In this document: positions 11,378 to 53,991 of the stretch, piece after piece
Layout of the letters: each line of letters opens with the position of its first letter
How positions within the stretch are numbered: the stretch's first letter is position 1
Source of the DNA: Muribaculaceae bacterium
GTDB taxonomy: Bacteria; Bacteroidota; Bacteroidia; Bacteroidales; Muribaculaceae
NCBI GenBank assembly: GCA_017405965.1
Contig: JAFQZK010000037.1
Span: 216,571-280,570 of the forward strand
Length of the DNA stretch: 64,000 nucleotides
Direction: 5' to 3'
Notes under the pieces: generated by a model
Told to the model about the DNA's origin: nothing
Database searches by the model: none
The model's input: only the letters and a program-made list of their open reading frames with translations
Made by a program: the position numbers and the translations under genes

Positions 11378-11472
11378 CATCTAGATATCAGTGCCGAAAT
11401 GATTGACTTGCACAGCATCCTGCCGCGTCTTAGAAATACACTTGCGGATTTGGCATTTCATTAAACTTGCAC

Positions 11473-11480
11473 TAATTTTG
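11473..11480 (+). promoter_or_regulatory. Promoter of subtilase paralog 2
   Basis: TAATTTTG with TTTG at 11449-11452 and a 20-base spacer matches the Bacteroidetes -33/-7 arrangement. The ATG follows at 11519. Confidence 0.75.
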
Positions 11481-11518
11481 CACAAAATTTAAGTAAACAT
11501 CACAATTAAGCATAATAT

Positions 11519-13867
11519 ATGAAACGATTTCTGTTGGCTACCATTGCCTTTTTAACATTAGCTATCGGCTTCGCACAGCTGAGTGAATTGTTGCCCGTCA
11601 GTGTACAGCGTTTCTTTGACGAACGCACTGACCAACAACGCCTTAAAAGAATGAACCATGCTGATGCCATCCCGTCAATGGCACCGCATCAGTTCGCTCC
11701 AACACACATCATCAATGGCGTAGAAATGGTGGATGCCTTCATAGAAATTGATAACAAGGGTGTTCTCAATGCCCTGCAAGCACAAGGTGTAATCATCAAC
11801 TGCGACCTTGACGAATTTGTCACAGCCCAGATACCCGTGGATATGTTGGCCAAGATTGGAGATATACCCGGAGTAATCAATGTGGAAATGAGCAAACTTG
11901 TTGACCTGTGTACCGACACCACCCTGAGCGTGACACATGCCGGACAGGTCATCAACGGTACCGAATACGGTTTGCCGCAGGGCTATGACGGTACAGGCGT
12001 TGTCGTCGGCATCATCGACGCGGGCTTTGACTACCAGCATCTGGCATTCCGATGCGCCGATGACACCAGTCGCACCCGCATCGTGAGGGTCTATGATCCC
12101 GCAAATGAAACGGGTCATCCTGCCATGAGCGGTACAAACCGTATGCCCGGCTCCATCTTCATGGGCGAGCAGATTGACACGTTGACCACCGACATGTTCG
12201 ATAATTCCCATGGCACCCACACGGCCAGTATCGCAGCCGGCTTGCATGTGGGCAACTATGGCGGTATGGCACCTAGTGCTGAAATTGTGTTGTGCGCCGC
12301 AAGAGATTTGAACGTGAGCATTTCCGAAACTCAAGTCGTTAACTGCATGAGGTATATCTATTCTTATGCCGACAGCGTGGGCAAGCCCTGCGTGGTCAGT
12401 GTCAGCGTGAGCACCAATCCGGGTCCCCGTGACGGCACTGACTATATTTCCAGAGCCGCTGCACGTTTTACCGGCCCTGGACACATCTTTGTCATTGCAG
12501 CCGGAAACACCGCCCGTTCCACCTTCTACACCTGTGGTCCCACAACCTCGAACAAACAATTCAGCACAATTTTCGGCCAATTGCCCGACGGTCTATGGGA
12601 TTACACATACTTTTACAAACATGTATGGTATGACACCTGGGTGAGAGACAAAAACATCAAGCCCCTTCTGCGTTTCCATGTCCTCGATACTAAGACGCAC
12701 CATATCGTATGGCAATCGAAATTGATTTCATCAACCCAGAAAATCGATGTATCCGAAATCAGTAAATATTATGAACCTGATTTTGCTGCAGATAGTGTAA
12801 GTTATATCTCTATATCAGTAGTAAAGAACACCTACTCTCAAAAATTCAATCTGCAGTGTGCCATCCACAATCTCAAAAGCAAGGATTACAGCCTCAATGA
12901 ATACGGCATGCGTGTCAGCCGATATGCTATCGGCATGACCGTTTACCCGCCCTCAATCAGCAATCCCAGCCAAGCAGACAGCTGTTTCATCGACTGCTGG
13001 ATCGGTTCTGGAGAACAACAGCGTTTAAATGACCCCATCTATGTGGACGAGGTCACCGAGGATGGTGATACGATCAGCAACTGTGCCCCCGAGGGTTTCT
13101 ATTCCCGCTCCAATGCATACAGCAGCATCGGCACCTATGCCGTTCACGACTCGGTCATCTCGGCTGGTGCTTATACAGGCCACGATTCCTACTATTCGCT
13201 GCGCTACGACTCCATCTTCTATGACATCAAATGTACCATTGGTGCAATTTACGATTTGTCAAGTTATCAACGAGAAGGTTACGGACCAACTGCAGAGGCA
13301 CTGCCCACAATCACGGCTCCTGGTGTCTATGTAGTGGCCGCCGGCAGCAGGTATTCTTACTTCGGGAACAACTGGCATGCTTCCAGGGTTATGACTGTGA
13401 ACGGACACGTCTGGGGTATCATGACCGGCACTTCGATGGCTGCGCCCACTGTTGCAGGCATCATTGCCCAATGGTTGCAGATCAAGCCTGACCTCACACC
13501 CAGCGAGACCAAATCCATCATTGCGCAGACAGCCATCAAGGATGACTTCACCCAGAACATTGATAACGGCTTCAGATTCGGCCCCAACGGCAAAATCGAC
13601 GCAATGGCCGGAGCACGTTATCTGCTCCACATCACCGACGATGATCACGACGTATTGCTTGGAGACGTCAATAATGATGGTTTAATCAATGTAACTGATG
13701 TCTCGTCACTGGTCAACTACTTGCTGCTTATCCCTGACGATGAAAACGAGCCCGTTAATTTCGAAGTCACCATTAATCTGCAAAACTCCGATTACAGCCA
13801 GGACGGAGTGATTTCTATCACCGACTTGATGATGCTCATCAATTATTTGATGAGTCTTGAGGAATGA
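11519..13867 (+). CDS. Secreted S8 serine protease with dockerin-like C-terminus, paralog 2
   Basis: 782 residues with the same order as its neighbours: signal peptide (MKRFLLATIAFLTLAIGFAQ), pro-region, subtilase domain, dockerin-like pair. The triad is D167 (GIIDAGFDYQH), H231 (SHGTHTASIAAG) and S639 (GTSMAAPTVAG). It is closest to paralog 1: long stretches such as the segment after the active-site serine are almost identical at base level, which suggests fairly recent duplication or gene conversion. The C-terminal repeats read GDVNNDGLINVTDVSSLVN and SDYSQDGVISITDLMMLIN. It has its own promoter. Confidence 0.93.
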   Translation: MKRFLLATIAFLTLAIGFAQLSELLPVSVQRFFDERTDQQRLKRMNHADAIPSMAPHQFAPTHIINGVEMVDAFIEIDNKGVLNALQAQGVIINCDLDEFVTAQIPVDMLAKIGDIPGVINVEMSKLVDLCTDTTLSVTHAGQVINGTEYGLPQGYDGTGVVVGIIDAGFDYQHLAFRCADDTSRTRIVRVYDPANETGHPAMSGTNRMPGSIFMGEQIDTLTTDMFDNSHGTHTASIAAGLHVGNYGGMAPSAEIVLCAARDLNVSISETQVVNCMRYIYSYADSVGKPCVVSVSVSTNPGPRDGTDYISRAAARFTGPGHIFVIAAGNTARSTFYTCGPTTSNKQFSTIFGQLPDGLWDYTYFYKHVWYDTWVRDKNIKPLLRFHVLDTKTHHIVWQSKLISSTQKIDVSEISKYYEPDFAADSVSYISISVVKNTYSQKFNLQCAIHNLKSKDYSLNEYGMRVSRYAIGMTVYPPSISNPSQADSCFIDCWIGSGEQQRLNDPIYVDEVTEDGDTISNCAPEGFYSRSNAYSSIGTYAVHDSVISAGAYTGHDSYYSLRYDSIFYDIKCTIGAIYDLSSYQREGYGPTAEALPTITAPGVYVVAAGSRYSYFGNNWHASRVMTVNGHVWGIMTGTSMAAPTVAGIIAQWLQIKPDLTPSETKSIIAQTAIKDDFTQNIDNGFRFGPNGKIDAMAGARYLLHITDDDHDVLLGDVNNDGLINVTDVSSLVNYLLLIPDDENEPVNFEVTINLQNSDYSQDGVISITDLMMLINYLMSLEE

Positions 13868-13933
13868 CAATAGTTTGTTTCTTCATCAGAGCGACATATC
13901 AACCTGGTATTTTGATAATTGGGCAGAATTGAC

Positions 13934-13941
13934 TATTTTTG
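13934..13941 (+). promoter_or_regulatory. Promoter of subtilase paralog 3
   Basis: TATTTTTG at the -7 position and TTTG at 13911-13914, 19 bases apart. The ATG follows at 13974. Confidence 0.7.
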
Positions 13942-13973
13942 CGCCAATTTAACAACGCATATCATTCAGATAA

Positions 13974-16313
13974 ATGAAAAGAGTTTTGTCGGCGGTAACA
14001 ACCTTACTGACCATTGCGGTCGGTTTTGCTCAGTTGCAGGATGTATTGCCCATAACCGTTCAACGCTTTCTTGATGAACGCTCCGATCGGGAACGCATCA
14101 CGAGAATCGACCATAATGAGGCCCCATCGTCACGGTTTGCTCCGTCACGCGTCATCAACGGCGTAGAGATGATGGACGCCTTCATTGACATCGAGGACAC
14201 TGATGTCATCAGCACCCTGCGGGCCCACGGCATTCTGGTGAATTGCGAGTTCGGAGACTTTGTCACTGCCCAGATTCCTGTCAGCATACTGGCCGAAGTT
14301 CATCACATTCCCGGTGTGAAAGACGTAGAACTCAGCCGCCTGGTTGAATTGTGCACCGACACCACATTGAGCGTGACGCATGCCGGCCAAGTCATCAATG
14401 GAACAGACTACAGGCTGCCTCAAGGTTATGACGGCAGCGGTGTGGTCATCGGCATTATCGACACGGGATTCGACTACCAGCATCTGGCATTTCGTTGTGC
14501 CGATGACACAAGCCGCACCCGCATCGTCAGGGTCTATGACCCCGAGGATTCGACTGGCCTCCCTGCCATAGTTGACGGCAACACGTTGCCCGGATCCATC
14601 TTCATGGGTGATCAGATTTACTCGTTGACCACCGATAACCTCGAGAACTCTCACGGCACCCACACAGCCAGCATCGCTGCCGGGACGCACGTGAACGGCT
14701 ATGGAGGCATGGCCCCGGGAGCCGAAATTGTCTTGTGCTCATCAAGGCTGCTCAACCTGAATATTTCGGAAGCCGAAATCATCAACTGCATCAAATACAT
14801 ATATTCTTATGCTGACAGCGTGGGCAAACCCTGCGTCATCAGTGTAAGCGTGAGCACCAACGAAGGCCCTCACGACGGCAATGACCGTATCTCCAAGGCT
14901 GTCGCCATGTGTACAGGTCCAGGGCACATCTTTGTCATCGCCTCGGGCAATAACGCCAACCCCTACTACTATGCCAGTGGTCCTGCAACGCTTGACCGGC
15001 AATTCAACACCTTGCTCGGCAAACGTCCAGACAACGACCCTGACCTCTCTTCATATTACAAAGACGTGTGGTTCGAAGTTTGGGTAAGGCAAAAAAGTGC
15101 CAAGCCCCTGATCAAAATCCACATCTATGACAAGCAGACCAGTCACATCGTCTGGCAAAGTGAGTTGGTAAACCTGTACAAATACATTAACGTTACAGAA
15201 ATCAGCGACTATTTCAGTCCTGACTTGAGCTACGACAGCAAGGGCTATATCAGTGTCGTCATTTCCAACAGTTCTTCTCAAAAGTATATGTCGGAATGCA
15301 AACTGTACAACTTAAGATGCAATGAGTTCATGATTGACGAGACTGGACGCAGCATCAGCCGTTACGCCATCGGCATGTCCATCTATCCACCTTATCTTGC
15401 TTATCCCAACAAGCCAGACAGCATCTACGTCGATTCATGGGTTGGCACGGGCAGCCGTATGTGGTATCCCAATACGGTTTTCAGGCAGGAGGTCAATGAG
15501 AACGGCGACAGCATTATGCGGGCTTTTGACCGATTTTATGCAAAGCCCGACACAAGGAGTTGCATCGGTTCCTATGCAGTTCATGACTCCATCATATCGG
15601 CCGGAGCCTACGTCGGTCGCAATGCCTACTACTCCCTCTCCCGAGGCATGAACGTTCAGGACAACAGTTACACCGTTGGAGACATCTATAATCTATCCAG
15701 CTACCAGATGCTCGGCACTGGCCCGACAGAGGCTGCATTGCCCACCGTCACTGCTCCCGGCGTGCTCGTGGTGGCTGCAGGCAGCCGTTACTCCTACCTC
15801 GGCAGGCCCGGCAACGCCGGCAGGGTCATGGAGGTGGACGGACATTCATGGGGTGTCATGACAGGCACATCGATGGCCGCGCCCACAGTGGCCGGCATCA
15901 TCGCCCAGTGGCTGCAGATCAACCCCGATCTCTCGCCCAGCGACATCAAGACTGTGATTGCCGAGACCGCCGTGAAGGATTCTTTCACTCAAAATGCTGA
16001 CAACGGCTACCGATTCGGCCCCAACGGCAAGATTGACGCGATGGCCGGGGCTCGTTATCTGCTCCACATCACCGACGATGAGGAGGATGACGTGCTGATG
16101 GGTGACGTCAACGGTGACACCAAGGTCAACATCTCAGACATCACGGCACTCATCAACTACCTGTTGTTGCTCACCCCCGAAGACGGGAGTGAGCCTCAGG
16201 ATAGCACGGTTCACATCAAAACGGCCAACGCCGATTTCAACGATGACGGTGAAATCACAATCACCGATTTGATTCAACTCATCAGTTACCTCGCGGCAAT
16301 GGACGAGCTTTAG
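13974..16313 (+). CDS. Secreted S8 serine protease with dockerin-like C-terminus, paralog 3
   Basis: 779 residues. Signal peptide MKRVLSAVTTLLTIAVGFAQ, then a slightly shorter pro-region than in paralogs 1 and 2. The triad is D163 (GIIDTGFDYQH), H227 (SHGTHTASIAAG) and S633 (GTSMAAPTVAG), with IASGNN at the oxyanion position. The central insert (about residues 330-560) has drifted much more than the catalytic core, as expected if substrate choice differs. The C-terminal dockerin-like pair reads GDVNGDTKVNISDITALIN and ADFNDDGEITITDLIQLIS; its first loop has DT in place of DG. It has its own promoter. Confidence 0.93.
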   Translation: MKRVLSAVTTLLTIAVGFAQLQDVLPITVQRFLDERSDRERITRIDHNEAPSSRFAPSRVINGVEMMDAFIDIEDTDVISTLRAHGILVNCEFGDFVTAQIPVSILAEVHHIPGVKDVELSRLVELCTDTTLSVTHAGQVINGTDYRLPQGYDGSGVVIGIIDTGFDYQHLAFRCADDTSRTRIVRVYDPEDSTGLPAIVDGNTLPGSIFMGDQIYSLTTDNLENSHGTHTASIAAGTHVNGYGGMAPGAEIVLCSSRLLNLNISEAEIINCIKYIYSYADSVGKPCVISVSVSTNEGPHDGNDRISKAVAMCTGPGHIFVIASGNNANPYYYASGPATLDRQFNTLLGKRPDNDPDLSSYYKDVWFEVWVRQKSAKPLIKIHIYDKQTSHIVWQSELVNLYKYINVTEISDYFSPDLSYDSKGYISVVISNSSSQKYMSECKLYNLRCNEFMIDETGRSISRYAIGMSIYPPYLAYPNKPDSIYVDSWVGTGSRMWYPNTVFRQEVNENGDSIMRAFDRFYAKPDTRSCIGSYAVHDSIISAGAYVGRNAYYSLSRGMNVQDNSYTVGDIYNLSSYQMLGTGPTEAALPTVTAPGVLVVAAGSRYSYLGRPGNAGRVMEVDGHSWGVMTGTSMAAPTVAGIIAQWLQINPDLSPSDIKTVIAETAVKDSFTQNADNGYRFGPNGKIDAMAGARYLLHITDDEEDDVLMGDVNGDTKVNISDITALINYLLLLTPEDGSEPQDSTVHIKTANADFNDDGEITITDLIQLISYLAAMDEL

Positions 16314-16322
16314 CAATGGACA

Positions 16323-16372
16323 GGCTCTTGGTATTTGAGCCGACACATTGATTCAATATGACAACAAGAGCC
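16323..16372 (+). terminator. Inverted repeat between subtilase genes 3 and 4
   Basis: GGCTCTTG (16323-16330) pairs with CAAGAGCC (16365-16372) across a 34-base loop. No T-run follows, so it may be a leader structure of gene 4 rather than a true terminator. Confidence 0.3.
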
Positions 16373-16452
16373 CACGAAAGGTTCTCAAACTTCACGGGAA
16401 CTCAACTGGGACTCATAACTGGACACAAACATATCTTGGTTACTTGAGACAG

Positions 16453-18705
16453 ATGAAAAGAATTTCATTGATTTGCATGCTGATCTTGATGACGATGTTC
16501 AGCATAAATGCCCAGATGTTGCTGCCTGTTACTGTACAGCAGTTCCTCGACGAGCAGGCTTACAGTGAGCAATTCAAGAGGCAGCAGCGAGCTAACGGTG
16601 AGAAATCATTGTTCGTCTCGCCGCGCATGGTCGACGGCATTCAGATGATCGATGCTTTCATCGCCATCGATGGTGAATACACCACCTCCATGCTTGAAGG
16701 GGCTGGAGTGGTCATCAACAGTTTGTTCGACGGCTTTGTTACGGCCCAGATACCGGTAGACCGGTTAGCCCAAGTCGCACGCATACCCGGAGTGACCGAT
16801 ATCGAGATCAGTCATCGTCTGGAACAATGCACCGACTCCACCATGAGTGTGTGCCACGTGAATCAAGTGTTCAACGGACCCTCCTACGGGCTACCTGCAG
16901 CATACAACGGCTCGGGTGTCATTGTGGGTGTGATTGATGTCGGGTTCGACTACCAGCATCTTGCTTTCAGATCGAGTGACAATCCCCTGCAGACCCGCAT
17001 CGTGCGCGTTTACAGCACCACCGACAAGACCGGACACACGGCTCGCTACAATAAGAACATCAGGTTACCGGGATCGGTATTTATGGGTAATGAAATCTAC
17101 GGCCTGACGACTGATAATCAGAACGACACTCATGGCACGCACACAGCGGGCATCGCCACAGGTACCCACGTCAACGGCTATGGAGGCATGGCCCCGGGTG
17201 CCGATATTGTCCTGTGTGCCGTCAGCGTGCTCGACGGAAGCATGTCGGCCGTTGAGGTCGCCAACTGCATGCGCTACATCAACTCCTATGCCGACAGCGT
17301 AGGACAGCCCTACGTCGTCAGCCTGAGTGTGAGCACACCCAACGGTCAACACGACGGCCAAGACTATCTGTCACGCGTCGTCAACCAACTCATGGGCCCG
17401 GGACGCATCTTCGTCATTTCGGCCGGTAATGATGCCGGCAGGTATTCCTATGCTCATGGTCAAGCCACGCCGTCGGCTCCTTTCAACCTGCTTTTCAAGT
17501 GCAAGAACAGCATCGGAGGAGATTCCACCTACTACTATGGCGGCGCCTTGGCCGACGTCTGGGTGCGTCAGGAATCCACCAATTTCTATTATAAATTCCA
17601 CGTGCTGGACATGAACACCGGGCATATCCTCTGGGAGACCGACGAGTTGTCCTCTAAGACGGTGATCGACGCATCGCAATTGGGTGGCTACTACATTTGC
17701 CACACGGCCGACACCGCCGGCTACATCAAGGCCAGTGGCAGCTACACATCCAACGGAAGGAAATACCGCTTGGACATATCGGTCCACAACTTGATCAGTA
17801 CCGCTTACACCACTGTCAATGGCGTCAAGAAAAGCCGATATGGTTTGGGCATCAGCATTTATCCTCGCCAGGAGACCACATGCGACTTTGATGCGTGGGC
17901 CTGCAACTCGGGATTCCGTTTCGGCACTTTCCCGCTTGTATTCAGTTCAGGCTCAGTGATCAAGAATTTTTATGCTGCTCCCAGCGATTCGTGCTGCATC
18001 GGAACCTATGCCGTCGGAGATTCAACGATATCGGCTGGAGCCTATGCCGCCCGCAACAACTACTACTCCATGAGAGCCGAGAGAGTGGTCACCGACAACA
18101 CGATCACGGTGGGTGACATCGCATCATTCTCCAGCTATGAGGTGAGAGGAGCCGGGCCCACAGGCAAAGCACTTCCCACCATTTGCGCCCCGGGCATCAA
18201 TGTAACCTCGGCAGTGAGCCGTTACTCCTATTTCGCCCGTAGCAGCCCCTACACGGTCATGTACAGCGGCGGCAGCTACTGGGGCGTCTTGAGCGGAACC
18301 TCGATGGCGGCTCCCACGGTTGCCGGCATCATCGCTTTGTGGCTCGAGGCCGACCCCACCCTGTCGGTTGCCGACATAAAAAACATCATAGCCCAATCAG
18401 CCACTCATGATATCTACACGATGTTCCGCAGCAAGGACAAGTTCGGCCCCTACGGCAAGATTGACGCGATGGCGGGCATGAAACTTGTGCTCAAACGCAT
18501 CACACCCAAGATAGGTGACGTCAACGCCGACGGCAACATCAACATTGCCGATGTCACCTTGTTGATCAACTATCTGATAAATGAACAGGGCGGCTTTGTC
18601 ATCAACGAATTTGCCTCCGACTTAAACTCAGACGGTAACATCAACATCATTGACCTTACCATACTTATCAATACAGTGCTCAACCTGAAAGCGCTCAATG
18701 TGTGA
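16453..18705 (+). CDS. Secreted S8 serine protease with dockerin-like C-terminus, paralog 4 (most divergent)
   Basis: 750 residues from the ATG at 16453, where a clear signal peptide begins (MKRISLICMLILMTMFSINAQ); an upstream in-frame start at 16348 would add 35 hydrophilic residues before it and is unlikely. The triad is D162 (GVIDVGFDYQH), H227 (THGTHTAGIATG) and S617 (GTSMAAPTVAG), with ISAGND at the oxyanion site. Sequence drift from the other three runs along the whole length, so it is probably the oldest split. Two dockerin-like repeats (GDVNADGNINIADVTLLIN, SDLNSDGNINIIDLTILIN) end the protein. No clear promoter was found upstream. Confidence 0.92.
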   Translation: MKRISLICMLILMTMFSINAQMLLPVTVQQFLDEQAYSEQFKRQQRANGEKSLFVSPRMVDGIQMIDAFIAIDGEYTTSMLEGAGVVINSLFDGFVTAQIPVDRLAQVARIPGVTDIEISHRLEQCTDSTMSVCHVNQVFNGPSYGLPAAYNGSGVIVGVIDVGFDYQHLAFRSSDNPLQTRIVRVYSTTDKTGHTARYNKNIRLPGSVFMGNEIYGLTTDNQNDTHGTHTAGIATGTHVNGYGGMAPGADIVLCAVSVLDGSMSAVEVANCMRYINSYADSVGQPYVVSLSVSTPNGQHDGQDYLSRVVNQLMGPGRIFVISAGNDAGRYSYAHGQATPSAPFNLLFKCKNSIGGDSTYYYGGALADVWVRQESTNFYYKFHVLDMNTGHILWETDELSSKTVIDASQLGGYYICHTADTAGYIKASGSYTSNGRKYRLDISVHNLISTAYTTVNGVKKSRYGLGISIYPRQETTCDFDAWACNSGFRFGTFPLVFSSGSVIKNFYAAPSDSCCIGTYAVGDSTISAGAYAARNNYYSMRAERVVTDNTITVGDIASFSSYEVRGAGPTGKALPTICAPGINVTSAVSRYSYFARSSPYTVMYSGGSYWGVLSGTSMAAPTVAGIIALWLEADPTLSVADIKNIIAQSATHDIYTMFRSKDKFGPYGKIDAMAGMKLVLKRITPKIGDVNADGNINIADVTLLINYLINEQGGFVINEFASDLNSDGNINIIDLTILINTVLNLKALNV

Positions 18706-46378: not shown

Positions 46379-46484
46379 GAAACTGCGCCAATACTACAGC
46401 CAAGGAGCAAACAAGCCTATCATTGGCTTGAATTAATCTTAGCGGCTTTGAGTGAGGTATAGCCGCTGAATAAAGAAAACAGTT

Positions 46485-46517
46485 TCAACCGGACAAGTAG
46501 CGGAAGGCGTCCTCTAG
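46485..46517 (-). repeat. Copy of the radA 3' end (candidate attachment site, left end of island)
   Basis: On the minus strand this reads LEDAFRYLSG-stop, against VEDAFRHLFG-stop at the true radA end (52603-52635). GCGGAAGGCGTCCTC is identical at 46500-46514 and 52618-52632, and 23 of 27 bases match over 46488-46514. Upstream of that the two sequences no longer match, which fits a short att core rather than a gene duplication. Confidence 0.6.
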
Positions 46518-46650
46518 TATCAACTCAAAGCCAAATCGCTTCTTCTACAAGAGACGATCTCCAAAGGGCATAATTGTTCACTGTACCCATTAAAATTATC
46601 TATCAATTAATAATTTTTTACCCATCATTGCTTATTTACAAAAAAGAAAG

Positions 46651-46658
46651 TATCTTTG
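46651..46658 (+). promoter_or_regulatory. Promoter of the YcaO/radical SAM operon
   Basis: TATCTTTG followed by C, with TTG at 46628-46630 and a 20-base spacer, a full Bacteroidetes promoter. The leader to the ATG at 46765 is about 100 bases. Confidence 0.75.
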
Positions 46659-46764
46659 CAGTTGTTTTTGGACATAAGTTTGTTTTTATTTAAGGGAATG
46701 ATCTACTATTTGTCCTCCATTATTTCTTTAGTTAATTCATACTAATATTTATGGTTTACGACTG

Positions 46765-48636
46765 ATGTCATACAAAGATTCACATCCTGTAGATACAATT
46801 AACCAAATTAAGGACATCCTTAATTCACTTGGTATTAAAACACGTGAGACTTTATACAATCTTCACAATCTCTGCTTTTCATGCAGGGTAGAAATCGACA
46901 ATTACGGATTGGAATCCTTAGGTATCGGTACGAATGGAAAAGGTATGACCATGGATTACTCTCTTGCTAGCGGATATGCCGAATTGATGGAACGGTTGCA
47001 AAACAAGTTTCTTGTTAATGAGGCTTTAAGACATTCTGCAAAAATCCCTAACGGCGAATCTTTACATTTTCGTTTTTTCCCAGACGAAACCCTGATAAGA
47101 AGCGACATTATGGACTTCTTCATTATGATTAAAGAACTATTCCCAAATTTCAATTCTTCAGAGGCAGAAAATTTTTGTAAAAAGTTGATAGGTATAAGTC
47201 ACCAAACGGAGACATATATTCAACTGGTCCAAGATATTAGCCCACAAATAGAATGGTTAGGTGTACCCTTTGCAAGATTTACAAAAGATCGTCATAAAGA
47301 CGGGATAAAATATGTTCCTATCATACTTGCCCGAGCCAACAGTTCTACAGGTCTTTGTGCTGGCAATACACCTCATGAAGCCATACTTCAAGGAATCAAC
47401 GAAATATTTGAACGATACGTTTTACAGCGGATTTATCTGGATAATATTACACCACCATCTTTTCCATCAGATTATTTCAAAGGAACAGAAATTGTCGAAC
47501 GACTGAATTGTTTGAAAGAACATGATTATATTTATGATGTGAAAGACATGTCGCTCGGAAAAGGGTTTCCAGTTGTGGGTCTCATATTGACAAACACCAA
47601 GAATGGAACTACAATGTTCCGACTAGGTGCGGACCTCAATCCAGTAATTGCTTTAGAAAGATGTCTTACAGAAATATATCAAGGACGCACAAAGCAAGAC
47701 ACTAGATTTTTGGAGTATCCTGTTCATAATATAATTAATATTGAGAACGATACCTTTATCAGAAATAAAGAGTACCAAAAGAGTTTAAAAGATGGAACTG
47801 GTTTTTTCCCTAAGAGTATTTTCATGGGTACGCCATCCTACGATTTCCAAAAACCCATTTTACATCGTAGCGATAATTCAAGAATAGACTTCATAAATGT
47901 ACTACATTTTCTTCAAGAGAGAAACTATACATTATTGGTTCGTGACAATTCATTTCTTGGCTTCTGTTCCTATCAAGTAATAATCCCTGGCCTATCTGAC
48001 CAAGACTACCGCCTGCGGGACATCTTTACAGAATACTTTTCGCCATTTGATCTCGATGCAAAAAATAACAATAATATTTGCTTTGAACGCGACGCCATTC
48101 AGTGGCCTCTTTATAACATAAAGGCACAACAAGATGCAAGGGAATTTGTAGAAAAGCATTATCCAAATGATGATAATCTGCGTCTTGCCCCTTACAACAC
48201 AGCACCTCAGAACATCATTAACAAGCATTTGTTATTATTTCTAATGGCCATCAAGAATAATGATTATAAGAATGCCAATATAAACCTCATGAATTTCATG
48301 GGCCAAAGGGCAGCTCAAGGATACCCATATGATTCCTATTTAGCTTGTGTCGGTAGTTATGTCTATTGTAAATCCATAGGCATGTCAAAAGAAGATTCCA
48401 TGTCATGGCTATGCCATTTCTATAAGACAGAAATAATTAACGAGGTGATTTCTGACTTCAGCGTACCAAATGAAATCATGAAAAACTATAATTTCCCGAC
48501 ATGTTTTAATTGTGATAACTGCCCGTTGGAATCTTCTTGTCATTATCAAAGGGCCATAGACTTTGAGCGTATGATACAGCAGATTCAAAAAGCCAACCCA
48601 ATAAATCAGAATAAACTTTTTAAAACACTAAATTAA
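46765..48636 (+). CDS. YcaO-domain protein, probable peptide cyclodehydratase/thioamidation enzyme
   Basis: 623 residues. YcaO enzymes use ATP to activate peptide backbone amides, giving azolines, thioamides or macroamidines. The ATP-site motifs are GKGMTMDYSLASGYAELMER (near residue 70) and CAGNTPHEAILQGINEIFERY (near residue 200), the usual GKG...SA..E..ER and GNT..EA...A..E..ER patterns. The C-terminus lacks the PxPxP end of azoline-forming SagD types and instead has a Cys cluster, C580-x2-C583-x2-C586-x5-C592, that could hold a metal or iron-sulfur centre. The radical SAM gene starts three bases after its stop. AT-rich composition suggests transfer. Confidence 0.88.
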   Translation: MSYKDSHPVDTINQIKDILNSLGIKTRETLYNLHNLCFSCRVEIDNYGLESLGIGTNGKGMTMDYSLASGYAELMERLQNKFLVNEALRHSAKIPNGESLHFRFFPDETLIRSDIMDFFIMIKELFPNFNSSEAENFCKKLIGISHQTETYIQLVQDISPQIEWLGVPFARFTKDRHKDGIKYVPIILARANSSTGLCAGNTPHEAILQGINEIFERYVLQRIYLDNITPPSFPSDYFKGTEIVERLNCLKEHDYIYDVKDMSLGKGFPVVGLILTNTKNGTTMFRLGADLNPVIALERCLTEIYQGRTKQDTRFLEYPVHNIINIENDTFIRNKEYQKSLKDGTGFFPKSIFMGTPSYDFQKPILHRSDNSRIDFINVLHFLQERNYTLLVRDNSFLGFCSYQVIIPGLSDQDYRLRDIFTEYFSPFDLDAKNNNNICFERDAIQWPLYNIKAQQDAREFVEKHYPNDDNLRLAPYNTAPQNIINKHLLLFLMAIKNNDYKNANINLMNFMGQRAAQGYPYDSYLACVGSYVYCKSIGMSKEDSMSWLCHFYKTEIINEVISDFSVPNEIMKNYNFPTCFNCDNCPLESSCHYQRAIDFERMIQQIQKANPINQNKLFKTLN

Positions 48637-48639
48637 TAT

Positions 48640-49788
48640 ATGATTACAACGTCCCAAGAATATCGTACAACGCGTATCTGTTCACTTATGGTGACACATG
48701 TATGCAATCTCAATTGCGTGTATTGTTTTGAGAAGCATAAAGACATCGGAAAACGAATGATGTCATTTAAAACAGCAAAGGCAATACTAGAGAAAGAGTT
48801 CGACTTGTTTACCAACATGGAAAGGTCACATGAAGAACGTTTCGCCATTGAATTCTTCGGTGGCGAACCATTAGTGAATTTTAAACTCATTAAAGAGATA
48901 TATTCTTGGGTTAAAGGACTTGACCTCACATTTCCCATGATGTTTCAGACAACAACAAACGGAACTCTGTTTACACCTGAAATTCTTGAATGGTTCACTA
49001 ATGCCAAAGATGACTTCCGCGTTGTGATTTCTGTTGATGGTGATGAACTGATGAACAAAGCTAACAGGGGCGTGAGCACAAATAGAATCCCAACAGACTA
49101 TATAGTCAGCCACTGGCCGAACAGTTATTTTAAAATGACAGTTTCAAAAGATACCCTATCCTCATACGCACAAGGCATAATTGAACTTACAAAGAAGGGT
49201 TATCGGGTTCCAAGTTCTTTAGCAGAAGGCGTGAACTGGGATAAACAAGATGCAAAGATATACAAAAGAGAACTCTTGAAAATCGGAACATTCTATCTGG
49301 AAAACCCTCAATATAAGGTAGAACAGCCATTTGACCTTCCATTTGATAAACTGTTGTATGACTCTGCCATTCCACCTAAAAATTGTGGAGTAGGCACTAA
49401 CACTCGCATTTATGACACAGACGGACAAGCATATCCTTGTCACTTATTCCTTCCTATAGTTCACGGGCGGGATAATATTGAGATGATCATTAACAGTATC
49501 GATTTCACAGACGACTCTTGCTTAATAGATGACACATGCCTAAAATGTCCGATAGCTAAGCTTTGCCGTACATGCTATGGCTATAATCAATTGGACCGTG
49601 GTAACGTAAAAGCTCGCAATAAGAAAAAATGCAAAATGCTTCTCGCAGAGCTTCAGGTGATTTCTAGTTTTCAGATTCAATATTTTATGCAAAGGAAAGA
49701 CAGATTGACGCCTGAAGACATGGAAAAACTCGCTATGGCAATAAGAGGATACGAACTTGTCCACCACACAAAATTCCATTTTGAATGA
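48640..49788 (+). CDS. Radical SAM/SPASM peptide-modifying enzyme
   Basis: 382 residues. The radical SAM cluster is C22-x3-C26-x2-C29 (HVCNLNCVYCFEK), followed by FFGGEPLVNF. The C-terminal SPASM region has C249-G-x-G, C267 in YPCHLF, then C294, C300, C303, C309 and C312 (CLKCPIAKLCRTC), enough for auxiliary 4Fe-4S clusters. Enzymes of this type install sactionine, cyclophane, ether or epimer modifications on ribosomal peptides. Its spacing to the YcaO gene (three bases) and to the peptide gene (67 bases) makes joint action on that peptide very likely, though the bond formed is unknown. Confidence 0.9.
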   Translation: MITTSQEYRTTRICSLMVTHVCNLNCVYCFEKHKDIGKRMMSFKTAKAILEKEFDLFTNMERSHEERFAIEFFGGEPLVNFKLIKEIYSWVKGLDLTFPMMFQTTTNGTLFTPEILEWFTNAKDDFRVVISVDGDELMNKANRGVSTNRIPTDYIVSHWPNSYFKMTVSKDTLSSYAQGIIELTKKGYRVPSSLAEGVNWDKQDAKIYKRELLKIGTFYLENPQYKVEQPFDLPFDKLLYDSAIPPKNCGVGTNTRIYDTDGQAYPCHLFLPIVHGRDNIEMIINSIDFTDDSCLIDDTCLKCPIAKLCRTCYGYNQLDRGNVKARNKKKCKMLLAELQVISSFQIQYFMQRKDRLTPEDMEKLAMAIRGYELVHHTKFHFE

Positions 49789-49855
49789 TGTTTTATAAAT
49801 AGAATATCATCCTGTATTAGTTAACTTTATTGTTTCATTTTTAAATGTTTCGACT

Positions 49856-49993
49856 ATGAAAGAAATGATTGGAGTTGCAACTCTTCAAGAAGCAAAGAAG
49901 ATTGTTGCAGACCAGCCGTGCGAGAGCAAGCCTCGAGTGGTGAACGTTCACTGCTCATGGTGTACAAACTGCTCTGGAATCGTTGGCGACTAA
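49856..49993 (+). CDS. Cys-rich short peptide, probable RiPP precursor
   Basis: A 45-residue frame. The N-terminal half (MKEMIGVATLQEAKKIVADQ) is a charged, helix-prone leader-like segment; a second ATG at codon 4 is possible. The C-terminal half holds C22 and a core HCSWCTNCSGIVGD with C33-x2-C36-x2-C39. There is no Gly-Gly leader site and no membrane segment. It lies between the radical SAM gene and the glycosyltransferase gene and is followed by a GC-rich hairpin, as often seen after RiPP precursors. Not similar to a precursor family I know. Coding status rests on context and composition, not on homology. Confidence 0.75.
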   Translation: MKEMIGVATLQEAKKIVADQPCESKPRVVNVHCSWCTNCSGIVGD

Positions 49994-50004
49994 TGCTTAT
50001 TCGG

Positions 50005-50038
50005 GGGAGGGAAAACAAATTAGTTCTACCTCCCTCTT
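50005..50038 (+). terminator. Hairpin after the precursor peptide gene (probable leaky terminator)
   Basis: GGGAGGGA (50005-50012) pairs with TCCCTCTT (50031-50038) around an 18-base loop. It would hold back transcription into the glycosyltransferase gene and raise the precursor's share of the transcript. Confidence 0.55.
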
Positions 50039-50052
50039 TAACTGGCGAGAAT

Positions 50053-51000
50053 ATGAAAGTCCAAATTGAAGATAAGTATTTTCATTATGGATATCACAAG
50101 CCGATACGTTACTATTGGCTTAAAAAAATGCTATATCCAATTATGAATCTTTTCTTTCACTTGCTAACTACGTTCATTCCTCGAGATCAACGGAAAACGA
50201 AACATTTTTTTTCTCTTGTACTCATATTCAAAGACGAAGCTCCATATCTGAGAGAGTGGATAGAGTACCATCTATTGTTAGGTGCGGACCATTTTTACCT
50301 ATATCAAAATAACTCTACAGACAACTATCTCTCAGTCATCCAACCATACATAGAAAAAGAGCTCATAACACTTGTCGAATGGCCAGAATATCCTGGTCAA
50401 TATTCTGCCTACCTGAACTGGTATAAGACGTTTCGGAATGAAACGCGTTGGGTTTCATTCATCGATATCGACGAGTTTATATGCCCAATTTCTGACACGA
50501 CTTTACAAGAAGTGATGAGTCGATATGAAAAGTACCCAGTAGTTCTTACCTATTGGAAGCTTTTTGGAACAAATGGTAATCTAATGCACAACACAGGAAT
50601 ACCAGTCATAGAGCAATACACAAATTGCCGACCGAAGCTTTTCACAGAAGGCAAAATCATCTACAACACCTACTTTGATGCGGCAAGTGAGTTTATCTCA
50701 ATGCATTACCTCGAGATCAAATGGCACTGCATAAAAATTCCACCTGTAAATACATTCAAAAAGTTTATTATCTGGGAATTACATCGTGTTAATAAGAAAA
50801 ATCAGCCATACATTCAACTCAATCATTACTGGTCAAAAGCTTTTGAGTGTTGGAAAAAGAAATATGAGAAGGGGAGTATTGAAAAAGGAATCAAATATAA
50901 GGATTTTGATTTTTTCAAAAGACTTGAATTTGCATGCACCTCAACAGACCATACCATTTGGCGTTTTTTAACATTATTAAAACTAAGATTGAAAGAATAA
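50053..51000 (+). CDS. GT92-like glycosyltransferase
   Basis: 315 residues from the ATG at 50053. In-frame starts at 49918 (inside the peptide gene) and 49993 (overlapping its stop) would add residues encoded by the hairpin, so I prefer 50053. The GT-A fold core reads SLVLIFKDEAPYLREWIEYHLLLGADHFYLYQNNSTDNY, then DIDEF as the DxD metal site, then LHRVNKK and QLNHYWSKAFECW, the His-rich GT92 end. A hydrophobic stretch near residue 30 may touch the membrane. It may glycosylate the Cys-rich peptide, as S-glycosyltransferases do in glycocins, but it could equally act on a cell-surface glycan. Confidence 0.85.
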   Translation: MKVQIEDKYFHYGYHKPIRYYWLKKMLYPIMNLFFHLLTTFIPRDQRKTKHFFSLVLIFKDEAPYLREWIEYHLLLGADHFYLYQNNSTDNYLSVIQPYIEKELITLVEWPEYPGQYSAYLNWYKTFRNETRWVSFIDIDEFICPISDTTLQEVMSRYEKYPVVLTYWKLFGTNGNLMHNTGIPVIEQYTNCRPKLFTEGKIIYNTYFDAASEFISMHYLEIKWHCIKIPPVNTFKKFIIWELHRVNKKNQPYIQLNHYWSKAFECWKKKYEKGSIEKGIKYKDFDFFKRLEFACTSTDHTIWRFLTLLKLRLKE

Positions 51001-51024
51001 TCGAAATTGAAATTATAAAACTAT

Positions 51025-51831
51025 ATGGACAAATATCAAGCTGCATCGAAGGTTCGTGAGTTAATAAAAAATCGCATGTTGTCATATTCACATGTAGATG
51101 GATTTAATGAAATGCTATGCGAACACGTTAATTATTTACTAAACGATAGCTCTATTATGGAGCAGTTGCATTATCAAGAGTTTGATGATGGTTCCTTTTA
51201 TCTGGGGTTTATGCAAAACAGTCAGCGCGAAGGTTATGGCATTAACTATCATAACAGCAATCACTTCTATTTTGGGGAATGGCACAATAACTCATACAAT
51301 GGCAAAGGATTCCTTTTTCAAGCTAACTATTGCCATTACGGTGACTTCTTAAATGGGAAAAGACATGGAGAAGGTATTATCGTTGGCAAAAATATGTATG
51401 TAGATGCTGATTTCGATAATAATAACATTTCAAGAGTAAAAAACACCTTGGGTGGGTTTACTTACAATGGAAAGATCTATGATGAAAACGGTAAGAGTTC
51501 AAATAAAAGTTTCGGTTTTGGGGGATGTATTAGTATCGTTTTCACAATAGTACTCTTTTGGGGCATATTTAGTTATTGTAGCTCCTGGCTAAAAACTCAA
51601 AATTCAGATGATCACAACAAGACTGAACTCTATTGTGCCACAACAACTTATATCTGCACAGCAAAAAAGAGCCTTAAAGTAAGGACTAAACCAGCAGTTT
51701 CATCTAGCCAGATTGGCAGCATTATGGCAGGCGAAGAGGTAGAAGTCTATGAAATTATTGATGGATTTGCAAGAATTCGCTATAATGACAATGATGGCTA
51801 TGTAAGTATAAGATATTTGAAGAAAAAATAA
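51025..51831 (+). CDS. MORN-repeat membrane protein with C-terminal SH3 domain
   Basis: 268 residues. Residues about 55-125 hold MORN repeats (YLGFMQNSQREGYGINY, YFGEWHNNSYNGKGFLF, YGDFLNGKRHGEGII). One membrane helix follows (about 170-188, ISIVFTIVLFWGIFSY), then a bacterial SH3-type domain at the end (LKVRTKPAVSSSQIGSIMAGEEVEVYEIIDGFARIRY). The layout suggests a membrane-anchored binding or sensing protein with the SH3 domain outside. It shares the island and low G+C with the RiPP genes; whether it belongs to that pathway, for example in immunity, is open. Confidence 0.8.
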   Translation: MDKYQAASKVRELIKNRMLSYSHVDGFNEMLCEHVNYLLNDSSIMEQLHYQEFDDGSFYLGFMQNSQREGYGINYHNSNHFYFGEWHNNSYNGKGFLFQANYCHYGDFLNGKRHGEGIIVGKNMYVDADFDNNNISRVKNTLGGFTYNGKIYDENGKSSNKSFGFGGCISIVFTIVLFWGIFSYCSSWLKTQNSDDHNKTELYCATTTYICTAKKSLKVRTKPAVSSSQIGSIMAGEEVEVYEIIDGFARIRYNDNDGYVSIRYLKKK

Positions 51832-51952
51832 AAAAGAGTATTATGAATTGGGATTGACTTCTATAACTTCAAATACAGTGATAAACGAACCCCAATTTAA
51901 CAATATATCTATTTTTTATTCACTATAACTTGCGTTAATTTTTAGTAATAAA

Positions 51953-52546
51953 ATGTTTAATCTATTTAATCTATTCAAAACCAAGAAATTAGAAATAAAA
52001 GAAAAGCAGTACTTTGATGTGTCTGCATTTAATCATATTTCAAGCTATGTTTCTATGATAGATTGGTATGATCCTATTTTCCCTGATTCAAATGAACTTG
52101 ATCCGTATGGTTTAAGAGAACCTCTTTCATGGGAAGAAAGGGAAAGAATTGAAAGACGCAAAGGGCCAGAAGCATACAATGGAGGTCTATTGGAGTTTAC
52201 GGTAGAAGAAGGGATCACAAAAATAGGAAGAATAGCCTTCGGATACAATTTGAATTTAAAGGTAATTATTCTACCGTCAACTCTTGAACGCATTGAGGAA
52301 AGGGCTTTTTGGAGATGTCCAAAGTTGCAAAGAATTGAGTTGCCTGAGAGAATAAAGTATATTGGGAATCATGCTTTTGATTACAAATTAAAAGAACTAC
52401 GAATTCGAGCAAAAATACCGCCTTGTATTACTATTTTAGGGATAAGTAAAGAGTGTAAAATTCTAGTTCCAATCGAAGGACGTGAATTGTATCTCTCATC
52501 AAATAAATGGAAGAAATATAAAGACCAACTCTTTTTTATTGAATAA
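51953..52546 (+). CDS. Short BspA-type leucine-rich repeat protein without signal peptide
   Basis: 197 residues. An N-terminal acidic region (VSMIDWYDPIFPDSNELDPYG) leads to three or four LRR_5 repeats (EEGITKIGRIAFGYNLNLKVIILP, LERIEERAFWRCPKLQRIELP, IKYIGNHAFDYKLKELRI). No signal peptide or membrane helix, unlike the BspA protein at 21187, so it is probably cytoplasmic. The 121-base gap before it contains an AATTGGG/CCCCAATT inverted repeat. It converges with radA and is the last island gene. Confidence 0.75.
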   Translation: MFNLFNLFKTKKLEIKEKQYFDVSAFNHISSYVSMIDWYDPIFPDSNELDPYGLREPLSWEERERIERRKGPEAYNGGLLEFTVEEGITKIGRIAFGYNLNLKVIILPSTLERIEERAFWRCPKLQRIELPERIKYIGNHAFDYKLKELRIRAKIPPCITILGISKECKILVPIEGRELYLSSNKWKKYKDQLFFIE

Positions 52547-52602
52547 AAAAATCTCCATTTGACAGAAATACATATAATTAATTCTGATACATATACAAAT
52601 TA

Positions 52603-53991
52603 TTAACCGAAGAGGTGGCGGAAGGCGTCCTCGACACGGGCGACTTCAACGACCTGGATGGTCCAGGAGTCACGCTTGACACCCTTGAGGTTGTTCTTGG
52701 GGATGATAATGGTGTCAAAGCCCAGTTTCTGGGCCTCGGTGACGCGCTGCTCGCATCGTGTGACTTGACGTATCTCGCCCGAGAGCCCCACCTCGCCAGC
52801 GAAGCACACATTATTATTTATCGCCATATCCACATTTGACGACAGGATGGCGCTGATGACCGCCAAGTCAAGCGCCGGGTCGTTGACCTTGATGCCTCCC
52901 ACGATGTTGAGGAAGACATCCTTTTGCGCCAACTTGAAGCCGAGGCGCTTCTCCAACACAGCAAGCAACATATTCATTCGACGCTGGTCAAATCCCGTGA
53001 CCGAGCGTTGCGCCGTGCCATAGGCCGCCGTGCTCGCCAGGGCCTGCACCTCGATGAGGAAAGGCCGCATGCCGTCGATGGTGACACCGATGGCTGTGCC
53101 CGAGAGTTCATCGTCGCGGTCAGTCAACAGCAGTTCGCTGGGATTGGTCACCTCGCGCAGCCCGTCCTCTTTCATCTCATAGATACCGATCTCATTGGTG
53201 TTCCCGAAACGGTTCTTGATGGGCCGCAAGATGCGGTACAGGTAATTGCGGTCACCCTCGAACTGGATGACGGCATCCACGATGTGCTCCAGCACCTTGG
53301 GACCGGCAATGCTGCCCTCCTTATTGATGTGGCCGATGAGGATGACGGGCGTATAGGTCTCCTTGGCATAACGCTGGAAGGCGGCGGCACACTCGCGCAC
53401 CTGTGTCACGCTGCCCGGAGCACTCTCCAACTGCTCACTGGCGATGGTCTGAATGGAGTCTACAATGATAAGACCCGGCTGGAAGGCACGGATGCTGGCG
53501 AAGATGTTGTCCAGCGAAGTCTCGCACAGCAGGTAGCACTCACAGTCCATGCGCCCACCGGCAATGCGGTCGGCACGCATGCGCAACTGCTGGGGACTCT
53601 CCTCGCCCGAGACATACAGCACACGGCGCGAACGGATGCGCAACACATTCTGCAGCACCAGCGTTGACTTGCCGATGCCCGGTTCACCACCCAGCAAGAC
53701 GATGCTGCCCGGCACGAGTCCACCGCCCAACACGCGGTTGAGTTCGCCGCTGGGCAGATTGATGCGGGGCTGATCCTCGGCACGAATTTCCGAAATCTTG
53801 ACCGGTTCCAGCGTCTTGTGAGCATTGTCGCCCACCGCGCCATAGCGCATCGATGATGACGACTTGGGCACCTTGGGCTCCTCAATGTAGGTGTTCCACT
53901 CGCCGCAAGCGGGGCACTTGCCGAGCCACTTGGGCGACTCGTTGCCGCAATTCTTGCAGAAGAAGGTGGTCTTGTTTTGTTGCTTGGCCAT
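52603..53991 (-). CDS. radA: DNA repair protein RadA/Sms
   Basis: 462 residues, complete. RadA is a hexameric helicase that extends recombination intermediates. The N-terminal zinc finger has C12, C15, C26 and C29; the RecA-like core has Walker A GGEPGIGKS (101-109), and the family motif KNRFGNTNEIG follows. The Lon-like C-terminal domain ends VEDAFRHLFG. The 3' end bears the sequence duplicated at 46485-46517. It lies downstream of trmH on the same strand across a gap filled with nonamer repeats. Confidence 0.97.
   Translation of the reverse strand: MAKQQNKTTFFCKNCGNESPKWLGKCPACGEWNTYIEEPKVPKSSSSMRYGAVGDNAHKTLEPVKISEIRAEDQPRINLPSGELNRVLGGGLVPGSIVLLGGEPGIGKSTLVLQNVLRIRSRRVLYVSGEESPQQLRMRADRIAGGRMDCECYLLCETSLDNIFASIRAFQPGLIIVDSIQTIASEQLESAPGSVTQVRECAAAFQRYAKETYTPVILIGHINKEGSIAGPKVLEHIVDAVIQFEGDRNYLYRILRPIKNRFGNTNEIGIYEMKEDGLREVTNPSELLLTDRDDELSGTAIGVTIDGMRPFLIEVQALASTAAYGTAQRSVTGFDQRRMNMLLAVLEKRLGFKLAQKDVFLNIVGGIKVNDPALDLAVISAILSSNVDMAINNNVCFAGEVGLSGEIRQVTRCEQRVTEAQKLGFDTIIIPKNNLKGVKRDSWTIQVVEVARVEDAFRHLFG

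Follow-up and report, generated by a model that had tools for sequence, protein, structure and literature searches.

What would be the product of a Bacteroidales locus in which a YcaO enzyme, a radical SAM/SPASM enzyme, a short cysteine-rich peptide and a glycosyltransferase follow one another, and which of these genes really belong together? The stretch of DNA analysed here (hereafter, the window) comprises 64,000 nucleotides of a Muribaculaceae contig, and a preliminary description proposed that these four genes form a cluster for a RiPP, i.e., a ribosomally made and post-translationally modified peptide. Our main reading, to which we assign a probability of about 0.78, is that they represent a new RiPP family whose maturase is nearest to PapB and probably forms Cys thioethers, the YcaO and the GT92-like enzyme being lineage-specific tailoring additions. 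The features on which this reading is built are collected in Table 1.

Table 1. Features of the island and its borders, in window coordinates.
Feature	Positions	Strand	Evidence
Direct repeat, left copy, 28 bp, imperfect; matches radA 3′ end; left island edge	46487..46514		
Promoter-like site, Bacteroidetes type, TTGC-19-TATCTTTG, 5′ of YcaO	46628..46658	+	Pattern match only
YcaO enzyme, 623 aa	46765..48636	+	PF02624 2.7e-39
Radical SAM/SPASM peptide maturase, 382 aa	48640..49788	+	PF04055 Radical_SAM 5.1e-9
Precursor peptide, 45 aa, C-terminal end VHCSWCTNCSGIVGD	49856..49993	+	Family common to 10 loci
Hairpin past peptide stop	50003..50036	+	ViennaRNA -18.5 kcal/mol
GT92-like glycosyltransferase, 315 aa	50053..51000	+	PF01697 1.2e-20 (frame from 49996)
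MORN-repeat / transmembrane / SH3 protein, 268 aa	51025..51831	+	SH3_3 4.1e-10; MORN 3.8e-4, under cut-off
LRR_5 (BspA-type) protein	51953..52546	+	LRR_5 7.1e-15
Direct repeat, right copy = radA 3′ end; right island edge	52605..52632		

The layout agrees with what had been described, including the common direction of the four genes and the three bases between the YcaO end (48636) and the radical SAM start (48640). Ahead of them there is likewise a promoter-like site, as a pattern match only to a motif (TAnnTTTG) that is frequent in the window, with 20 occurrences on one strand and 21 on the other. The four genes are real; the MORN/transmembrane/SH3 gene and the LRR_5 gene of the same island had been overlooked. 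For the glycosyltransferase, the likely start is the ATG at 50053, which matches by eye the related gene of a second genome, G138; the alternatives, a GTG at 49918 whose longer frame overlaps the peptide and an ATG at 49993, are less likely.

The whole block is an island of 36% GC flanked by feoB and radA (0.356 against 0.546 in the left flank) and bordered by two repeat copies identical at 24 of 28 positions, with a local score of 36, where 200 shuffles reached 29 at most. Twenty radA regions of close relatives, picked by RadA identity and contig size from 92 genomes with a match, were fetched, and none of them gave a tblastn match (E 0.01) to the island genes; in relatives, the site is occupied by other inserts, next to three of which a duplicated radA end was looked for and not found. 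The gene cluster is horizontally acquired, and as a whole it would constitute a mobile biosynthetic island. A link with iron through the proximity of feoB was considered and rejected, because the radA 3′ end is the insertion point of this block and, in relatives, of other inserts.

The strongest evidence comes from the peptide. The neighbourhood search that had been suggested as a check, carried out with the radical SAM protein, reveals that peptides of the CxxC type recur beside homologous enzymes: a family of 44-46 residues ending in C-x2-C-x2/3-C-x-G-[IT]-V-G is found in all ten loci with a close radical SAM relative, at 12-67 bp from that gene, after it in eight loci and before it in two. 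Eight of these loci scored at least 489 bits with radical SAM profiles, and the other two (L014 and L015) came from tblastn, with 360 and 305 bits. A separate scan of genome contigs covered the best 80 of 102 relatives. Moreover, a motif scan of 2.4 Mb, with 29,371 short frames, recovered 10 distinct peptides, all of them at close radical SAM genes. The scanned DNA was not a random sample, consisting mostly of YcaO, radical SAM, radA and glycosyltransferase neighbourhoods, some present twice; and as the motif was derived from the three earliest members and then slightly broadened, the later finds were guided by it.

The comparison with G138, whose radical SAM protein is 65% identical to that of the window, adds a second line of evidence. 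The last 15 residues of the two peptides are identical and their 15 core codons differ by six synonymous and no non-synonymous changes, which indicates purifying selection on the core, as judged from this one pair only. Since the frame recurs by the radical SAM gene in ten loci and its core changes only synonymously, it is more than chance, and the reading as a chance frame was rejected. The 45-residue peptide with a CxxCxxC core is thus present as described and, contrary to the two findings that would have spoken against it, its family accompanies homologous radical SAM genes, and none of the nine other peptide-bearing loci has a disrupted frame. A short precursor co-conserved with a modifying enzyme, as expected of a RiPP, is found in 10 of 10 loci, G152 being the exception among the enzyme's relatives.

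Indeed, the supported group of the radical SAM tree contains 11 rows, the ten peptide-bearing ones and G152 (locus L165), which sits on a long branch (38% identity, 341 bits) and lacks such a peptide at its locus; the ten alone form one group in only 26% of bootstrap trees. Further out, the main peptide motif has no match in 15 loci of more distant enzymes (L103-L106, L137, L138, L163-L171), nor in the 10 IMG/VR loci found with the radical SAM profile. L138 has one match to a looser motif, far from its radical SAM gene. Among plasmids, 18 records match the protein, the best at 31.9% identity; this Phocaeicola record, the only one read, has no such peptide in a 9-kb stretch. Other Cys-rich peptides accompany sister enzymes in L135, in L136 and, on inspection by eye, in seven loci of a set of 15.

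The enzyme itself carries the motif CNLNCVYC (CX3CX2C) starting at residue 22, so it has no long N-terminal extension, and seven more cysteines in SPASM-like spacing (C249, C267, C300, C303, C309, C312 and C331); its cysteines are invariant in six aligned sequences, window included. The family profile matches CteB (5wgg) at 5.4e-35. Nevertheless, none of the best 25 of 65 curated profile matches exceeds its family cut-off: the nearest family is PapB, at 127.5 bits, far under its cut-off of 340, and the CXXX-repeat maturase scores 96.1 against 350. The peptide-radical SAM pair matched no searched reference family above cut-off. The pairing of a RiPP precursor with a radical SAM maturase is nonetheless well supported by sequence comparison, on which the RiPP assignment of the cluster also depends, and the product is probably a chemically modified peptide.

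How far the other genes take part is less uniform. The cluster as first proposed stands in its radical SAM and peptide pair, present in ten loci, and does not hold as a fixed combination, as a YcaO is present in only four of them and a GT92 in only two, the window and G138, i.e., in one other genus. The recurring core is accordingly the peptide and the radical SAM enzyme, with YcaO and glycosyltransferase genes as optional add-ons.

This distribution leaves real room, short of even odds, for another interpretation, in which the radical SAM enzyme and its peptide make up a pair for a RiPP or a peptide cofactor, the GT92 and MORN genes are neighbours with a separate role in surface polysaccharide, and the product is unglycosylated. 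Both genes lie past the hairpin located behind the peptide, a possible partial terminator; in G138 a hairpin of unrelated sequence likewise lies 3′ of the peptide (-27.3 kcal/mol, a raw ViennaRNA energy, as is that of the window hairpin). The glycosyltransferase has no match in eight of the ten peptide loci (the L014 contig being only 4.2 kb long), and its next nearest relatives (35-40%) belong to exopolysaccharide-like loci that also encode flippases and further glycosyltransferases in 4 of 4 places read by eye, in two genomes, two of the places being near-copies within one genome. Against this, glycosyltransferase and MORN genes come after the peptide in both genera, with radical SAM enzymes that share just 65% identity, and each glycosyltransferase has the other as its nearest relative: among 297 genomes the closest to that of the window is the one in the G138 cluster (53%, 389 bits), the next being at 40%. 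G138 shows the same five-gene order, with GT92 and then MORN after the peptide, once its contigs C74 and C50 are joined by an exact 99-bp end overlap. Its MORN counterpart occupies the same place (34% identity over the matched part), and in G745 a MORN gene lies directly 5′ of the peptide (27%); genome-wide, MORN matches fall in the gene adjoining the peptide in 5 of 5 cases in G745 and in 2 of 4 in G138. The LRR_5 gene has no match within the G138 stretch, and it is no more than a candidate member of the cluster.

That the product is instead an intracellular redox or metal cofactor derived from a peptide, as PQQ or mycofactocin, and not a secreted RiPP, seems unlikely to us. The core is short and conserved, each locus holds a single peptide, and inspection of the 10 sequences by eye shows no GG-type leader. 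Furthermore, as had been remarked, no transporter is visible: the five-gene cluster contains no PCAT exporter, the first 25 of 98 Pfam families assigned to the 43 window frames that reach 120 residues include neither an exporter family nor an ABC transporter, and no protease or exporter was seen near the cluster. Nevertheless, no oxidoreductase or other user enzyme recurs by the peptide in the loci read, and a patchy, island-borne distribution is unlike that of a cofactor with a housekeeping user.

The YcaO protein belongs to its superfamily (PF02624, 135.8 bits against a cut-off of 25.7) and is of the stand-alone type, with E. coli YcaO (4q84) as the nearest solved structure (1.9e-28, residues 50-420) and YcaO_for_S12 as the best curated match. 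It could therefore be taken, with very low probability, as an accessory for ribosomal protein S12 methylthiolation that lies here by chance. However, the S12 profile is matched at 138.7 bits, far under its cut-off of 700 and along residues 4-412 only; the gene is rare in the host family (five genomes out of 397, that of the window among them) and adjoins the same radical SAM and peptide family in four separate genomes; and in a neighbouring YcaO clade all six loci place the gene next to a different short Cys peptide. The low score, the rarity and this peptide-linked clade led us to reject it as the main reading. The residues that we take to be the ATP site are conserved in nearly all of 79 sequences. 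In addition, a C-terminal CxxCxxCx5C motif (C580, C583, C586 and C592), complete in 60 of the 79, window included, is left unaligned with 4q84, where the alignment ends at residue 420.

The YcaO partner is not obligatory, because three genomes (99% complete) hold the radical SAM gene and the peptide without a YcaO match anywhere; genome-wide absence refers to G745, G536 and G500, and also to G600, G760 and G686 only, and absence in G1208, G1211 and G1243 to tblastn of the fetched 11-12 kb loci. Since L015, with a YcaO, and G745, without one, share the same core, the design of the core does not require this enzyme. A Ser after the first Cys is found in all four cores with a YcaO, thus forming a Cys-Ser pair, against one of the six without (few lineages). 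Finally, that the small frame is a metal-binding or thioredoxin-like fragment (DsbE-like WCxxC) is scarcely credible and was rejected, as the match of the window peptide to TIGR00385 dsbE (E 4.7e-4) reaches 19.8 against a cut-off of 123, none of the nine other members matches, and the enzyme recurring next to the frame is a peptide maturase.

Returning to the modified peptide, its biosynthesis may be envisaged as follows. The 45-residue peptide would consist of a leader of about 30-33 residues and the C-terminal core CSWCTNCSGIVGD, a division supported by conservation. The radical SAM/SPASM enzyme, of the PapB/CteB/CXXX-repeat kind, would form thioether bonds between cysteines of the core and carbons nearby. 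A PapB-kind link from Cys to Asp or Glu might be suitable, because each of the ten cores has exactly one acidic residue, whose position shifts between lineages; strict PapB chemistry is not predicted, because CX3[DE] occurs in 0 of 10 cores. In some lineages, the core would next be a substrate of the stand-alone ATP-dependent YcaO, which would activate one of its backbone amides, the Cys-Ser pair being a conceivable site. In the window and in G138, the GT92 enzyme, probably recruited from the surface-polysaccharide pool, could add a sugar, and the MORN membrane protein, whose transmembrane stretch was recognised by eye, may serve location, immunity or release. A more specific proposal, which we find doubtful, is that of a new RiPP class with a CxxCx2-3CxG[IT]VG core cross-linked to the single wandering acidic residue, the window product combining thioether, YcaO backbone change and GT92 sugar, with no GG leader or PCAT release.

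Known systems share parts of this design. PapA/PapB ranthipeptides (NF047865) resemble it in the short Cys-rich substrate, the SPASM maturase and the best curated profile match; PapB is reported to tolerate zero to six residues between Cys and Asp (PMC9413430), a range that includes the C39-x5-D45 of the window core. Unlike PapA, besides the low maturase score and the missing CX3D/E, the cores here end in GIVG or GTVG. The CXXX-repeat systems (TIGR04115/TIGR04119) resemble more distant relatives of the enzyme (28-38% identity), which in seven of the 15 loci inspected by eye lie next to CSGTC-type repeat peptides, a likeness drawn from the neighbouring peptides and the position in the same tree; the window enzyme falls short of the cut-off of the TIGR04115 maturase profile and its peptide has three core cysteines and no repeat. 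In a Bacteroidales survey, BGC6-8 are radical SAM and YcaO clusters with an ItfB-type amidine YcaO (PMC10352776), alike in lineage and in the stand-alone YcaO plus radical SAM enzyme, ItfB being likened by description and not by sequence. The survey also reports glycosyltransferases in BGC3 and BGC9, PCAT exporters in BGC6-8, and GG-type leaders for most precursors, explicitly for BGC8 (PMC10352776); the window cluster differs in having no visible PCAT or GG leader and in its peptide family. Compared with glycocin-type glycosylated RiPPs, the glycosyltransferase follows the peptide here in two of ten loci, and its role in glycosylating the precursor is putative. A literature search, with subscription literature mostly outside it, returned no paper that we recognised as describing this peptide family.

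Altogether, the locus adds to Bacteroidales a compact maturase-precursor pair unclaimed by the reference profiles searched. Its natural versions that have or lack a YcaO (L015 and G745, whose cores are identical), or that have or lack a GT92, offer a ready comparison of the roles of a stand-alone YcaO and of a GT92 enzyme on a radical SAM-modified peptide.

The radical SAM/SPASM maturase (rSAM) of the window and the 45-residue Cys-rich precursor peptide beside it recur as a pair: where a close relative of the rSAM is encoded, a peptide of the same family lies 12-67 bp away (10/10 loci), 3' of the rSAM gene in eight loci and 5' in two. The preliminary description had set YcaO, rSAM/SPASM, peptide and GT92-like glycosyltransferase genes in one direction, which the frames found bear out, and the series continues with two more genes (see table). 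The window genome holds a single YcaO match and, away from the cluster, one weak match to the rSAM (E 9.8e-5). Pfam gives no match to the window peptide, and none of the ten peptides of the family reaches an NCBIfam cut-off. Elsewhere in the window, large, mutually similar genes stand in tandem at 9059-18705, and among the Pfam families listed for its 43 longer frames, four frames match subtilase and six dockerin, dockerins being seemingly unusual here.

Features of the window cluster and of small frames at other loci (L, fetched locus; G, genome)
Feature	Position	Strand	Remark
YcaO	46765-48636	+	
rSAM/SPASM	48640-49788	+	
Precursor peptide	49856-49993	+	
GT92-like glycosyltransferase	50053-51000	+	
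MORN/TM/SH3 gene	51025-51831	+	same direction, 3' of GT92-like gene
LRR_5 gene	51953-52546	+	same direction, 3' of MORN gene
52-58 aa Trp/Phe-rich small protein, G1208	L160:10583-10759		upstream of rSAM
52-58 aa Trp/Phe-rich small protein, G745	L100:1156-1314		upstream of MORN-peptide-rSAM
WCDxC-x-[EQ]-G peptides	L016:485-616, L017:5941-6048, L020:82-195, L021:6022-6150, L022:7223-7390, L024:5893-6006		
Low-complexity frames after YcaO	L028:11861-12154, L033:11900-12406, L036:11949-12272, L056:11757-12200	opposite to YcaO	

Five aligned YcaO proteins, used as the query in a scan of genomes, gave 79 loci from the best 80 of 102 relatives; over these and the window, the peptide motif occurred in just three places: the window, L014 and L015. 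Besides the window, the same two loci gave the strong rSAM matches (360 and 305 bits, respectively), weaker ones of 48-77 bits occurring at L063, L067, L083 and L084. Profile searches with the rSAM matched 7 of 393 genomes of the order, window included (adding G745, G536 and G500), and, in further sets, 4 of 56 (G1208, G1211), 2 of 8 (G1243) and 11 of 247, the last recovering the missing contig of G138, a genome of a second genus; in the phylum, 6 of 395 matched, with other Cys-rich peptides in two of the four new loci. A motif search over 29,371 short frames in 2.4 Mb of DNA (overlaps counted) returned ten distinct peptides, all from the ten loci. In the rSAM tree the ten peptide-bearing rows fall within a supported group (96/99) together with G152, which sits on a long branch and lacks a peptide of the family at its locus; the ten form a group by themselves in 26% of bootstrap trees. 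By eye, G1208 and G745 also share a similar amphipathic small protein.

YcaO is a less constant companion. No YcaO match exists in G745, G536 or G500, all of which carry the pair; of seven genomes tested only G138 has one, and YcaO presence mapped on the rSAM tree takes at least three changes among the ten rows. In a YcaO tree built by a quick method, the window and L013, the YcaO contig of G138, form one pair (100) and L014 and L015 another (94), both pairs lying in an unresolved fork with the four-rSAM group and L025. A C-terminal CxxCxxCx5C, with all four Cys in 60 of 79 sequences from Bacteroidota and Bacillota, is possibly a metal or Fe-S site of the enzyme.

The fullest counterpart is that of G138 (genome completeness 79%), where contig C50 carries rSAM (64%), peptide, GT92 (52-53%) and MORN (34%), arranged as in the window; its end shares an exact 99-bp overlap with the YcaO-bearing contig C74, and L013 breaks off after some 20 codons of the rSAM gene. 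The window and G138 peptides are identical over their C-terminal 15 residues, the codons differing by six synonymous and no non-synonymous changes. A hairpin, taken without a shuffle control, follows the peptide in both, the two sequences being unrelated.

The two GT92-like proteins are each other's nearest (53%), the next standing at 40% (297 genomes, 32 matched). The glycosyltransferase seems to have been recruited, since the four next places examined resemble surface-polysaccharide loci; it would glycosylate the peptide. As to MORN, all five matches in the G745 genome lie within the gene adjoining the peptide and two of four in G138 within the cluster gene; in the window genome no match passes the threshold, the cluster copy itself being too weak, and of the five other genomes four have none and G500 two, away from the peptide.

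In the genus of the window, the gap between feoB and radA (window 46400-52602) is an insertion spot where other species carry other inserts. A RadA match exists in 92 of 101 genomes, and 20 of the 92 supplied a radA region: in 17 the stretch spans feoB with its small partner gene and radA, and in three (L115, L117, L122) feoB lies outside it. Of these 17, 14 have a gap of no more than about 400 bp and three a gap with another gene in it, by eye acyltransferase-like in L113 and L123 and a different, unrelated one in L121. Window YcaO, rSAM, peptide, GT, MORN and LRR genes have no tblastn match (E 0.01) in any of the 20 stretches, and the site is empty in G232, the closest relative by RadA (99%). 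This island has a GC content of 0.356, compared with 0.546 in the flank to its left, and is bordered on either side by a 28-bp repeat matching the radA 3' end (24/28 identical). No integrase was seen within the island, which would have been gained through integration at the radA 3' end.

Clusters with rSAM and YcaO are known from Bacteroidales (PMC10352776); they have PCAT exporters and, for the most part, GG-type leaders. The pair described here differs from them, as far as the accessible part of that source goes, in its precursor, in the type of leader and in what its maturase matches. In a YcaO clade next to these (Muribaculaceae, Bacteroides, Cryptobacteroides), the clusters contain three SPASM-type rSAMs and, in five of six cases, a B12-type rSAM; at the head of all six stands a short peptide that carries WCDxC-x-[EQ]-G close to its end and has no NCBIfam match at E 0.01, apparently a further RiPP family without a name. 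Low-complexity frames follow Clostridium and Sporomusa-type YcaO genes, a Cys-rich repeat in L033 (e.g., SCQSCYSMK) and Met/Ser-rich repeats with Cys in L028 and L036.

By eye, the peptides have in common a helical-looking leader with many Glu and Ala residues and a core CxxC(GLG/TN/AN)CxG[IT]VG, which starts with Cys-Ser in 4/4 YcaO-associated cores vs 1/6 without YcaO. Among the matches listed, the best curated ones of the rSAM are PapB (127.5 bits vs a cut-off of 340) and a CXXX-repeat maturase (96.1 vs 350), CteB being the nearest solved structure by sequence. CX3[DE] occurs in none of the ten cores. Each has exactly one acidic residue from first Cys to peptide end: C-terminal in five, after the third Cys in three and after the first in two. 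According to the accessible part of PMC9413430, PapB tolerates Cys-Asp gaps of zero to six residues. This tolerance and the single acidic residue per core hint, in a post hoc reading of about five lineages, that Cys may be joined to Asp/Glu by a thioether.
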